The notes below the pieces were generated by a model. The model was not told where the DNA came from and ran no database searches. It was given only the letters and a program-made list of their open reading frames with translations. Both the position numbers and the translations under genes were made by a program. Positions 5,775 through 10,109 of a stretch of DNA of 64,000 nucleotides are shown one piece after another; position 1 is the first letter of the stretch, and the number at the start of each line of letters is the position of its first letter. This DNA is from Methylacidiphilum kamchatkense Kam1 (lineage in GTDB: Bacteria; Verrucomicrobiota; Verrucomicrobiia; Methylacidiphilales; Methylacidiphilaceae). Location of the stretch: positions 992,001 to 1,056,000 of the forward strand of contig NZ_CP037899.1 in NCBI RefSeq assembly GCF_007475525.1, read 5' to 3'.

Positions 5775-7610
5775 ATGACAGTAAAATTAAAAAAGCCTAA
5801 AAAGTATGCCGTGGCTAGGAATGCGACATTGTTGGCTGCTTTTGGCTTGATTGGTTCTTTTTCGCTTGCAAAAGCGAATGACGAGTTGATTAAACTTGAA
5901 AAAGAACCCGGCCAATGGGTCATGCAAAACAAAAATTACGCAAATACGCGGTATAGTGAACTTAATCAAATCAATACCAAAAATGTGTCCCATCTGCGAC
6001 TTGCCTGGAGTTTTTCAACCGGGGCTTTGCGTGGACACGAAGGCGGACCATTAGTGGTAGGCACGACGATGTATGTCCATTCGGCCTATCCTAATCATGT
6101 TTACGCCCTTGATTTGACTCAAAAACCATACGCAATCAAATGGCAATATACCCCTGTGCAGAATAGTCAAGCAGTGGCAGTTGCTTGCTGTGATGTGGTG
6201 AACAGAGGTCTTGCCTATGCGAATGGAAAAATATTCATGGTAACATTGGACGGTCAAGTTATTGCCCTTGATGCGAATACCGGAAAAGAACTCTGGAAAG
6301 CAAAGCATGCAGATGTGACTAAGGGAGAGACCATTACAGGAGCCCCCTTGGTCGTTAAAGATAAGGTTCTGGTTGGGGTCTCCGGAGGAGAATTTGGAGT
6401 CAGAGGAAGAGTAGGAGCCTATGATATCAATACAGGCAATAGGGTATGGTTAGCTTATAGCCAAGGCCCAGATGAAGAGGTTCTGATAGATTCTGACTTC
6501 AATAAAGAGTTTCCACAGCATGGTGGTCCAGGGGATGGAACTAAAACCTGGCCAGGGGAACAATGGAAACTGGGTGGAGGGACTACATGGGGATGGTACA
6601 GTTACGATCCTGCCCTTGATTTATTTTACTATGGGACAGGCAATCCTGGAACTTGGAATGCAGAACAAAGGAAAGGAGGAGACAACAAGTGGTCCTGCAC
6701 TATTTTTGCTAGAAGGCCTGATACTGGGAAGGCTAGATGGGCTTATCAGATGACTCCATGGGATGCTTGGGATTATGATGGGATCAACGAAATGATTCTT
6801 CCTGATTTAACGGTAAAAGGGAAGAAAACCCCCTGTCTTGTTCATTTCGATAGAAATGGATTTGCATATGTTTTGGATAGAAGGACAGGTCAGTTAATAG
6901 AAGCACAACCCTTTGTTTATGAAAATTGGGCTAAAGAAATAAGTAAAGAAAACGATAGACCTGTTGAAATCCCAGAAAAAAGGACAAAACAGGGAGTTGA
7001 TACCAAAGGGATTTGTCCGAATTCAATGGGAGGCAAGGATCAACAGCCTGCGGCCTTTTCTCCTCAAACAGGGTTATTTTATGTGCCCACCAACAATATG
7101 TGTATGAACTACGAAGGGGTTGAGGCTACCTATACGGCTGGGGCACCGTATGTGGGTGCGAATGTGCTCATGTATTCTGGGCATGAAGGCAAGGATGATT
7201 ATTATGGAGCTTTTATCTGCTATGATGCTCTTAAAGGGAAGAGAGTTTGGGAGATTCATGAGCATTTTCCCGTATGGAGTGGACCTGTGGTTACAGCCGG
7301 TGGGCTTGCGTTCTATGGAACGATGGATGGATGGTTTAAGGCAGTAGATATCAAGACTGGCAAGGTTCTTTGGCAACAGAAATTGGGCTCTGGAATTATT
7401 GGGAATCCAATTACCTTTTTGGGTCCTGATAAAAAGCAATACGTTGCTGTCTATTCAGGAGTTGGAGGATGGTTTGGGATTGCAGTGGCTCAAAATCTTC
7501 CTCCCGATGATCCTTATGCGGGTCTTGGGGCTGTTGGAGTTGCTTATCAAGCCGGCCTTCCAAAAGCTACTACAATTGGAGGAGAGCTCTACGTGTTTTC
7601 GCTAGAATAA
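5775..7610 (+). CDS. xoxF: Lanthanide-dependent methanol dehydrogenase, PQQ-containing
   Basis: A 611-residue periplasmic quinoprotein that oxidises methanol, in this family often onward to formaldehyde or formate. The signal peptide is residues 1-34, ending SLAKA. Subtracting it, all XoxF metal-site residues fall at the numbers known for the enzyme from Methylacidiphilum fumariolicum SolV: Glu206 (mature 172), Asn290 (256), Asp333 (299, catalytic base) and Asp335 (301). Asp335 is the extra aspartate that marks lanthanide enzymes; calcium MxaF has alanine there. The adjacent cysteines 138-139 (mature 104-105) form the vicinal disulfide over PQQ. WxG-type beta-propeller repeats run throughout. 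It is followed by its own terminator, then xoxJ and xoxGJ. No mxaI-like small subunit is present. Confidence 0.97.
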   Translation: MTVKLKKPKKYAVARNATLLAAFGLIGSFSLAKANDELIKLEKEPGQWVMQNKNYANTRYSELNQINTKNVSHLRLAWSFSTGALRGHEGGPLVVGTTMYVHSAYPNHVYALDLTQKPYAIKWQYTPVQNSQAVAVACCDVVNRGLAYANGKIFMVTLDGQVIALDANTGKELWKAKHADVTKGETITGAPLVVKDKVLVGVSGGEFGVRGRVGAYDINTGNRVWLAYSQGPDEEVLIDSDFNKEFPQHGGPGDGTKTWPGEQWKLGGGTTWGWYSYDPALDLFYYGTGNPGTWNAEQRKGGDNKWSCTIFARRPDTGKARWAYQMTPWDAWDYDGINEMILPDLTVKGKKTPCLVHFDRNGFAYVLDRRTGQLIEAQPFVYENWAKEISKENDRPVEIPEKRTKQGVDTKGICPNSMGGKDQQPAAFSPQTGLFYVPTNNMCMNYEGVEATYTAGAPYVGANVLMYSGHEGKDDYYGAFICYDALKGKRVWEIHEHFPVWSGPVVTAGGLAFYGTMDGWFKAVDIKTGKVLWQQKLGSGIIGNPITFLGPDKKQYVAVYSGVGGWFGIAVAQNLPPDDPYAGLGAVGVAYQAGLPKATTIGGELYVFSLE

Positions 7611-7631
7611 TCTTCCATTGAAAATTCACTT

Positions 7632-7682
7632 TATCCAGCCGCTGTCTAAAAACCCATGTGTTTGTATGGCAGCGGCTGGATA
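7632..7682 (+). repeat. 13-bp inverted repeat downstream of xoxF
   Basis: Perfect arms TATCCAGCCGCTG (7632-7644) and CAGCGGCTGGATA (7670-7682) flank a 25-base loop, starting 21 bases after the xoxF stop. No T run follows, so it is not a classical terminator. It could be an mRNA-stabilising or processing hairpin, or a protein-binding dyad. Confidence 0.7.
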
Positions 7683-7736
7683 GCCTTGATCAAAGCGATT
7701 GGTTGTTTTGCAAAAAAGGCAGAAGCAGCTTACAAA

Positions 7737-7772
7737 CCAATCCTTTTTAGAAGAATCGGATTGGCTTTTTTT
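7737..7772 (+). terminator. Rho-independent terminator after xoxF
   Basis: The stem CCAATCC (7737-7743) pairs with GGATTGG (7758-7764), separated by 14 bases, and is followed by C then seven T residues (7766-7772). It should end or attenuate the xoxF transcript before xoxJ, which starts 90 bases later. Confidence 0.75.
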
Positions 7773-7862
7773 AATCAGTCTAAGCTTCTAGGGAAAAGTG
7801 GATATAATCCTTGAAGAAATAGAGGACAGGGGATAGGTTCTAGAAAAGGAAAAGGAGCAAAA

Positions 7863-8735
7863 ATGGTTGGATTAAGGTTTCATTTTTTACATAGGCTAAA
7901 GATATTATCATTTAGCCTCCTCTTTGTGTTTTGCATAGGGTTCGTATGCAAGGCAGAGGAACTCTGCTCCTGCGCGGATCCAGGAAATCTTCCTTTTTCG
8001 AATCAAAAATTGGAAGGATTTGAGAATAAAATCGCTCAAATCGTAGCCGATTCCCTGCATGTTCCTCTATCTTATTATTGGTTTGCTCATCAACGTGGTC
8101 TTGTTCGAAATACATTGAAAATAGGAAAATGCAATGTGATTATTGGAGTGCCGTCGACTTGGGGGCAAGTGCTAACTACAAAACCTTATTATAGGACTTC
8201 CTATGTAATGGTTTATAAGAAGGACAAGGGTTTAAACATTCAATCCTTGGATGATCCCGCTTTGAAGCATTTAAAAATAGGGGTGTTGATAAACAGTCCG
8301 CCCCATCAACTTCTTGCTGAAAAAGGGATTATAGAAAATGTTGTTGGATATTCCCCATTCTTTGATCCTGTGTTTCATCCTGAAGATTTCCCTGGAAAAA
8401 TCGTTGAAGAGGTTTTGAGTGATAAAATTGATATTGGTCTTGTTTGGGGGCCAGTGGCAGGGTTTTACATCAAAAAGAAAGGTGCTGCCATTGTTATGGT
8501 TCCTTTGACAAGCAATAATCCGAGAATTCCAATGGCCTTTGACATTTCCATGGGGGTCAAAAAGGGGGATCAAGAGCTTAAAAACAAACTTGATCAGGTT
8601 ATTGATTCGAAACGTGGAGAAATTTTACAGGTTCTGGAAGAATATGGTGTTCCATTGCTGAAAACTACAGCTGATATCGAACAAAACACGAATATCGGAA
8701 AAAGCCACGAAGTTTCAGCAAAAACCGTCAACTAA
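7863..8735 (+). CDS. xoxJ: XoxJ, periplasmic binding-protein-like partner of methanol dehydrogenase
   Basis: 290 residues with an N-terminal hydrophobic signal segment (about residues 13-30). The mature start LCSCADPGNLPFSN followed by GFENKIAQIVAD is the MxaJ/XoxJ hallmark, and the rest has the two-lobed solute-binding fold (GVPSTWGQVLTTKPYYRTSYV, then DIGLVWGPVAGFY). XoxJ proteins are thought to help mature or activate apo-XoxF in the periplasm; the exact role is inferred from family work. The ATG follows an AAGGAG ribosome binding site. The gene is 31 bases before xoxGJ, so the two probably share a transcript downstream of the xoxF terminator. Confidence 0.88.
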   Translation: MVGLRFHFLHRLKILSFSLLFVFCIGFVCKAEELCSCADPGNLPFSNQKLEGFENKIAQIVADSLHVPLSYYWFAHQRGLVRNTLKIGKCNVIIGVPSTWGQVLTTKPYYRTSYVMVYKKDKGLNIQSLDDPALKHLKIGVLINSPPHQLLAEKGIIENVVGYSPFFDPVFHPEDFPGKIVEEVLSDKIDIGLVWGPVAGFYIKKKGAAIVMVPLTSNNPRIPMAFDISMGVKKGDQELKNKLDQVIDSKRGEILQVLEEYGVPLLKTTADIEQNTNIGKSHEVSAKTVN

Positions 8736-8766
8736 CAATATTAACTTTTATTTATCAGAGCTAAGA

Positions 8767-9645
8767 ATGAAAAAAATTAGCATTGTTTATTTAATGTTGT
8801 CTTTGTTGCCATTGAGCAGTCTTTTTGCCCAAGCGAAAAATCCTTATACTCCCTCAGACAAAACGGTCGTTTCTCAGGGTAAAGAATTATACTTTAAGAT
8901 GGGATGTAACGGCTGTCATGGAGCAGGGGGAGGAGGTGGCATGTGTCCTTCTTTTATAGATGACACATGGGTTTTTGGTAGCGACGATCAGACCTTATTT
9001 AAACTCATTAAAGGACAGATTCCTCAACAAACGATGCCAAGAATGTTTGGTGGGGTACTGACTGATGACGAAATTTGGAAGGTTATTACCTTTGTAAGGT
9101 ATTGTAAAGTTGCAGCTTCCGAACAGGCCGCTGGAGCATCGGGTCAAATAAATATAGATAAGAAATCATGTGCTATAGTGGAAGCTGACCCTCATTGGCT
9201 CAGAGCTGTTCTTCCTAAATTGACGGGATATCAAAACCAATACGTTTTAGTTTTTGATGGCTCTTCAAAGAATTTCTCATCTGCAGAAGACAGTAAACTT
9301 GCTGGCGCTACACTTGCTATTCTCGATAATAGTTCTGGAAAAGAAATAGCTAGTTTGCTTCATGCCAAACCTAAAGTATATCCTGACAAAGAAAGAGAAC
9401 TAGGAAAACCAGTAGAAGATCTTTTAGCAGGGAAAGTAGATGGGGCTATCTTATGGGCTCCTTTGGCTGCTTTTTATACAATGGAATTGGATTCGTCAAG
9501 GAAACTTAAAATGATAGCGTTTTCCAAAGCATATCCCGCACCTAAAGGATTTGAAGGTCAAGAACAAAGCTCTATGGTTTATGTAACAAAATGCGCTGAA
9601 GCCTTACTCAATGTACTAAAAGTCTATAACGTAGCTCCAAAATAA
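8767..9645 (+). CDS. xoxGJ: XoxGJ fusion: c-type cytochrome joined to a XoxJ-like domain
   Basis: 292 residues. Signal peptide is residues 1 to about 23. A class I cytochrome c domain follows, with one haem site CNGCH (Cys47, Cys50, His51) and candidate axial methionines 90 or 93 in TMPRMF. After a linker near residue 115, the C-terminal half (about 130-292) resembles one part of a XoxJ/MxaJ binding protein (DGAILWAPLAAFYTMEL). Verrucomicrobial methanotrophs are known to have such a cytochrome cGJ, shown in strain SolV to accept electrons from XoxF. It lies directly downstream of a separate xoxJ, so the operon encodes one full and one fused J module. Confidence 0.9.
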   Translation: MKKISIVYLMLSLLPLSSLFAQAKNPYTPSDKTVVSQGKELYFKMGCNGCHGAGGGGGMCPSFIDDTWVFGSDDQTLFKLIKGQIPQQTMPRMFGGVLTDDEIWKVITFVRYCKVAASEQAAGASGQINIDKKSCAIVEADPHWLRAVLPKLTGYQNQYVLVFDGSSKNFSSAEDSKLAGATLAILDNSSGKEIASLLHAKPKVYPDKERELGKPVEDLLAGKVDGAILWAPLAAFYTMELDSSRKLKMIAFSKAYPAPKGFEGQEQSSMVYVTKCAEALLNVLKVYNVAPK

Positions 9646-9740
9646 AGAAAAGAGAGGTTCATAAGGTTTTTAAAGTTTGTTGGTTTTGTATTGTTCAAGG
9701 CTATTGCTTAGTTTTGGACATTGGATACAATGTAAGTATT

Positions 9741-10109
9741 ATGGGACAGAATCTTTCTGAAGAAAAATGCGTTGCTTGCCGTGGAGATGCCCCCAAAGTG
9801 ACACCAGAAGAGAAGGAACTGCTAAGTAGGCAAATTCCTGAATGGAAAATTGTCGAAAAAAATGGGGTAGAAATGTTGGAAAGAAAATATGAGTTCCCTG
9901 ATTTTGCTTCGGCTTTGATGTTTACCGAAAGAGTAGGAAAACTTGCCGAGAATGAAAAACATCATCCTTCTATTTTGACGGAATGGGGAAAAGTTACAGT
10001 CTGGTGGTGGACCCACAAGATCAACGGATTACATCGTAACGATTTTATTATGGCAGCAAAAACAGATAGCCTCTATCAACCACTTTTAAAAGATTATATT
10101 GAATCGTGA
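9741..10109 (+). CDS. phhB: Pterin-4a-carbinolamine dehydratase
   Basis: About 122 residues of the PCD/DCoH family, which dehydrates 4a-hydroxytetrahydrobiopterin. The active-site signature is present: EKHHPSI (paired histidines), a downstream WWWTHKINGLHRND stretch with the third histidine, and the closing Asp. The N-terminus MGQNLSEEKCVACRGDAP is typical for bacterial members. An in-frame TTG start at 9714 would add nine residues; the ATG at 9741 is preferred because it matches family N-termini. Neither has a strong Shine-Dalgarno. No phenylalanine hydroxylase is adjacent, so the pterin substrate here is uncertain. Confidence 0.88.
   Translation: MGQNLSEEKCVACRGDAPKVTPEEKELLSRQIPEWKIVEKNGVEMLERKYEFPDFASALMFTERVGKLAENEKHHPSILTEWGKVTVWWWTHKINGLHRNDFIMAAKTDSLYQPLLKDYIES

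Follow-up and report, generated by a model that had tools for sequence, protein, structure and literature searches.

The 64,000-nucleotide stretch analyzed here (hereafter the window; bases 992001-1056000 of the closed, single-contig genome of Methylacidiphilum kamchatkense Kam1, 2,202,032 bases) carries, by its gene content, a xoxF-xoxJ-xoxGJ methanol-oxidation operon. It encodes the lanthanide-dependent methanol dehydrogenase (MDH) XoxF, a free XoxJ and a cytochrome c fused to a XoxJ-like domain. Structure models indicate that this second J module, referred to below as Jt (truncated J), is one lobe of J with a C-terminal helix, and not a second complete J. We consider it probable (roughly 0.6) that in this operon XoxJ serves the activity of the enzyme and XoxGJ accepts its electrons, with Jt docking the cytochrome rather than activating XoxF.

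The block and the core of the docking idea are already known, and the locus is very probably the published Kam1 xoxFJG:J operon itself, with no difference between the two. The operon is in print for Kam1, SolV and V4, where the fused J was described as truncated in comparison with the free J, with the speculation that it attaches XoxG:J to the enzyme (PMC6688271). Our locus shares gene order, fusion, truncated J and suggested docking with the Methylacidiphilum xoxFJG:J/cytochrome cGJ systems of these strains (PMC6688271; PMC8498564). The GJ fusion beside a separate xoxJ was noted for Methylacidiphilum and XoxGJ was named the redox partner (PMC8498564), and acceptance of electrons from XoxF by cytochrome cGJ has been reported in SolV (Versantvoort 2019, cited in PMC8498564 and PMC8170126). 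In Methylorubrum extorquens AM1 the loss of xoxJ is as severe as that of XoxF (PMC7391723), and insertion of pyrroloquinoline quinone (PQQ) has been proposed as the role of XoxJ (PMC8170126). The one-lobe reading of the fused J, the Jt lineage and the Acidobacteria cases described below were not found in the literature searched.

The three open reading frames are intact and lie, all on the forward strand, where the original prediction placed them (Table 1). Residues 35-611 of XoxF align end to end with residues 1-577 of the SolV MDH (4mae). Once the first 34 residues are removed, E172, N256, D299 and D301 are in register with that enzyme, as had been claimed for the four lanthanide-site residues, and so is the vicinal pair C104-C105 (mature, SolV numbering). 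The protein matches TIGR03075 at 681 bits and combines a PQQ alcohol-dehydrogenase propeller with the ligands E172, N256 and D299 plus the additional D301, features that identify it as a lanthanide methanol dehydrogenase; lanthanide-dependent methanol oxidation itself is known from others' work on the closely related SolV enzyme (4mae). The earlier statement that no MxaF system is seen in the window holds even genome-wide, XoxF being the only MDH-type quinoprotein found. A genome-wide search for MxaI (PF02315) gave no match, although control genomes were equally silent.

The set contains a complete XoxJ, as predicted. It scores 311.8 bits against TIGR03871 (curated cut-off 212.15) with the whole profile (positions 1-232) covered, and its closest solved relative is XoxJ 6onp (E 1.6e-55). 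In the AlphaFold2 model (mean pLDDT 90) elements E6, H25, E41, H52 and E64 precede the hinge, which is followed by E82 to E182 and then by E197 and two helices. Set against XoxJ of M. extorquens AM1 (6onp) and MxaJ (5sv6; 9ism for the MxaF/MxaJ complex), the free XoxJ qualifies as a complete family member, and Jt as a distant relative in which the N-terminal part of lobe 1 is missing, G196 is replaced by A and a second cysteine is present.

XoxGJ contains one CxxCH cytochrome domain. With an XoxG-type cytochrome c joined to a J domain, and with its gene after xoxJ, it belongs to the cytochromes cGJ as described in PMC8498564. Its tail reaches only 35.6 bits against TIGR03871, over profile positions 54-183 of 232, and falls short of the 212.15-bit cut-off. 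Comparison of a profile of 5 GJ tails with one of 23 complete Js nevertheless gave an hhalign probability of 99.4 (E 1.2e-21), with J columns 61-240 of 245 aligned. In the AlphaFold2 model of XoxGJ the counterparts of E82 to E182 (E159-E247) and a C-terminal helix are kept, and the first part of lobe 1 and strand E197 are missing. The J tail is modeled mostly at pLDDT 80-90 and the cytochrome core is poorly predicted. The best PDB match of the model is XoxJ 6onp (131 residues at 4.2 Å); closer structural matches of Jt are lobe-sized, covering about 100 residues of other binding proteins near 2 Å. The models show no two-lobe XoxJ fold with a cleft in the tail, which is also without the DPGN/GFEN part of J, and a two-lobe cleft therefore cannot form from a one-lobe Jt alone. 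The predicted cytochrome fused to a XoxJ-like domain and the two different J modules stand as far as fusion and homology go, but it had not been said that the tethered module is truncated, and a single lobe is not an equivalent J. As a possible refutation, the original prediction had named a C-terminal half of XoxGJ that does not share the XoxJ fold; we found one lobe shared and the other mostly missing.

Jt has residues of its own. G196 of the W-G-P motif is present in 75 of 75 Js and is replaced by A in all seven Jt lineages, each of which also keeps the cysteine equivalent to C90 and adds a second one, C276. W230, P232, A234, Y155 and Y159 are retained in Jt. Twelve positions are common to the seven lineages, three of them unlike J. 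A new disulfide in Jt would likely replace the lost lobe 1 contact. Within Methylacidiphilum, XoxGJ is as constrained as XoxF, with ratios of nonsynonymous to synonymous substitution rates (dN/dS) of 0.058 and 0.055.

To place Jt, a tree of 89 domains (75 complete J and 14 Jt) was built. All 14 Jt rows fall on one side of a branch, apart from the 75 Js (SH-aLRT 99), and a grouping of all xox G-Jt with their own xoxJ was rejected (p 0.034). On this tree we favor a separate origin of Jt over a local duplication in Methylacidiphilaceae. The possibility that each J is linked to its own truncation was discarded, since all Jt rows cluster as a single group.

A scan of 84,980 genomes for complete J gave 80 loci, to which follow-up genomes were added. 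Complete J was found with MDH-type dehydrogenases. In the 387 Verrucomicrobiota genomes covered, only two genera of the window's family have the G-Jt fusion; one of them is represented by genome G005, which has three identities to the window that come near those published for Methylacidithermus strain PQ17. The PQ17 paper lists the gene as a plain xoxG, but the gene is in fact a fusion. That Jt is confined to Methylacidiphilum was rejected, since Acidobacteria carry it on cytochromes, in both fusion orders and in up to three systems per genome. The opposite possibility, that Jt is common, was rejected as well: in the phylum of locus L040, 22 of 95 genomes matched, but all frames have the length of complete J and complete-J-like scores.

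Three Acidobacteria metagenome-assembled genomes (MAGs; G440, G441 and G458) have Jt in more than one system. System 1, present in all three, is xoxF-xoxJ-(G-Jt), as in the window; it is clear on one contig in L173, and in the remaining two MAGs it is either split or interrupted by contig ends. System 2 consists of a Jt-cytochrome fusion, a complete J and a PQQ alcohol dehydrogenase (L145, 114-3813; L174, 7844-11613; L144), the enzyme having CC and E/N/D/D in both genomes where it is complete and being cut by the contig end in L144. In system 3, found in two of the three MAGs, the Jt-cytochrome adjoins a GSDH-like propeller with no J nearby (L146, 275-2639; L175, 6082-8454). A lone Jt-cytochrome occurs in two soil Acidobacteria (L171, 3-3434; L172, 1496-2923), and that of L172 lies near a multiheme cytochrome. 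Jt pairs with XoxG-type and PedF-like cytochromes alike.

J is coupled to other modules in two further arrangements. Vicinamibacteria-type Acidobacteria (L043, L044, L045 and L046) have, directly after xoxF, a J-XoxG frame of 414-492 amino acids, which resembles XoxGJ in joining J and XoxG in one chain and differs in the opposite order and in its single, complete J. In Methylacidimicrobium XoxF1 systems and several Proteobacteria, J is likewise coupled to another module beside xoxF; here, however, a complete J carries a C-terminal extension of about 180-310 amino acids with ankyrin-like repeats (L050, L060, L062, L067, L070, L072, L075, L079, L081, L087, L088, L090, L098, L105-L107, L109-L111), and XoxG is a separate cytochrome with an insertion before the axial Met, encoded next in most loci.

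A loss case was found in Methylacidimicrobium. In synteny with the window, its XoxF2 locus runs HAD, MFS, xoxF2, pterin dehydratase, NAD-binding protein, lipoamide dehydrogenase, but the interval from xoxF2 to the dehydratase gene no longer contains xoxJ and xoxGJ. In the XoxF tree the branches outside, Acidobacteria and G005, have J as well as GJ, so the absence is a loss. XoxF2 carries C105Y and D299G in 7 of 7 genomes (L198-L204; Methylacidimicrobium-type G006-G012), one of which also has a second XoxF1 copy (G008:C1:711345-713165, L205); CC and E/N/D/D occur in all other XoxF sequences examined that cover these sites. With a dN/dS of about 0.10 the protein is still under purifying selection; expression of xoxF2 in AP8 is 85-fold below that of xoxF1 (PMC7907005). 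Judging from the substituted sites and the missing adjacent xoxJ and xoxGJ, the Methylacidimicrobium XoxF2 is likely no longer a methanol dehydrogenase, and the case fits J and GJ mattering for XoxF2 catalysis.

In the reading that we prefer, XoxF would use PQQ and a lanthanide to oxidize periplasmic methanol, the complete XoxJ would be the accessory protein that XoxF needs for activity (activation, cofactor loading or assembly), and XoxGJ would be the physiological electron acceptor. Jt, having lost most of one lobe and hence the J cleft, most likely serves to dock or position the cytochrome permanently and would not activate XoxF. Gene identities, the truncation, the separate grouping of Jt and its cytochrome-bound distribution come directly from sequences and models; the division of labor and the docking role of Jt are what we infer. 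The original prediction of one J free for activation and one tethered to the electron acceptor agrees with complete J adjoining MDH-type dehydrogenases and Jt being fused to cytochromes in two orders, with the correction that the tethered module is one lobe. More tentatively, at slightly less than even odds, Jt may be a distinct, previously unnamed domain of single origin, always on a c-type cytochrome in either order, that couples cytochromes to several periplasmic quinoprotein systems, complete J being the activator; loss of both would then leave XoxF2 non-catalytic and kept for another role, as in Methylacidimicrobium. Several observations weigh against the preferred reading. Long-branch attraction could group the Jt rows, and a local xoxJ duplication in Methylacidiphilaceae, with J and Jt there as one clade, was not rejected by the approximately unbiased (AU) test (p 0.15). 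Around the lone Jt-cytochromes of L171 and L172 the parts read contain no MDH-type gene, so quinoprotein docking may not apply throughout. A complete J can be tethered too, since the four J-G Acidobacteria have a single one fused to the cytochrome. The loss case amounts to one correlation in one lineage.

Other explanations of the fused lobe were weighed. Jt might serve the downstream side, placing the cytochrome at the electron carrier that follows, at an oxidase or at the membrane, or stabilizing it in acid, with no contact to XoxF. The Jt-cytochromes beside a GSDH-like propeller without a free J, the two contexts without an MDH-type gene and the pairing of Jt with both cytochrome types speak for this, but the family from which Jt stems (TIGR03871) is otherwise linked to quinoprotein dehydrogenases, and in MDH-type systems Jt sits with xoxF and xoxJ; we regard such a role as rather unlikely. 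We give still less credence to redundancy of the two J modules, in activation or in docking, with the fused copy a partly degraded duplicate of xoxJ. J and Jt are clearly homologous and the AU result leaves room for a duplication; yet Jt has lost the DPGN/GFEN half, spans two phyla as a separate lineage marked by particular invariant residues, does not group as xox G-Jt with its own xoxJ and, within XoxGJ, is part of a protein as constrained as XoxF. Very improbable in our view is that J proteins deliver PQQ or lanthanide and that the Jt lobe is an inert relic, a mere folding unit of the cytochrome: PQQ insertion has indeed been proposed for XoxJ, as cited above, but neither the twelve shared positions, three of them unlike J, nor the strong selection on XoxGJ would be predicted for an inert relic.

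Between the genes, gaps of 252 bases (xoxF-xoxJ) and 31 bases (xoxJ-xoxGJ) were measured. The core of the stem-loop after xoxF stays paired through CG-to-TA and GC-to-AT double changes in two Methylacidiphilum relatives, in which the outer pairs break. A scan for consensus promoters and terminators gave no more matches than shuffled sequences and missed the second hairpin. SolV transcripts at maximal growth amount to 5945 (xoxF), 941 (J) and 760 (G) reads per kilobase per million (RPKM; PMC3404531), counts that would agree with partial read-through. Searches of PHROGs, Rfam and a plasmid collection gave no match for XoxGJ or the region.

Table 1. Features of the xoxF-xoxJ-xoxGJ block and its surroundings (window coordinates)
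Feature	Position	Strand	Description or basis
xoxF (XoxF2 clade)	5775-7610	+	lanthanide-dependent methanol dehydrogenase precursor, 611 amino acids; 34-residue export signal
Stem-loop after xoxF	7632-7682	+	15-bp stem; only match of its own pattern in the genome
Second hairpin and U-run	7737-7771	+	hairpin 7737-7764, terminator-like, between xoxF and xoxJ; seen in sequence
xoxJ	7863-8735	+	complete two-lobe periplasmic-binding-protein-like accessory protein, 290 amino acids; profile, structure match, model
xoxGJ (cytochrome cGJ)	8767-9645	+	292 amino acids; signal, XoxG-type cytochrome c domain, linker, truncated J; profiles, model
Cytochrome c part of XoxGJ	8767-9120	+	residues 1-118; CNGCH 47-51, M90 candidate axial ligand
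Truncated J (Jt)	9121-9642	+	XoxGJ residues 119-292; one lobe and C-terminal helix; C135, C276, W230-A-P-x-A
4a-hydroxytetrahydrobiopterin dehydratase-like gene	9714-10109	+	conserved neighbor; edge of the Methylacidimicrobium xoxJ-xoxGJ deletion

For annotation, the loss case bears on XoxF2 of Methylacidimicrobium, whose listing as a second lanthanide methanol dehydrogenase contrasts with its missing Asp299 ligand and vicinal disulfide; whether a heavier lanthanide induces it was left open in PMC7907005. For methanol dehydrogenases, J proteins may act in activation, cofactor loading or docking, and a natural one-lobe J on a cytochrome beside a free two-lobe J lets simple deletions separate the two roles.

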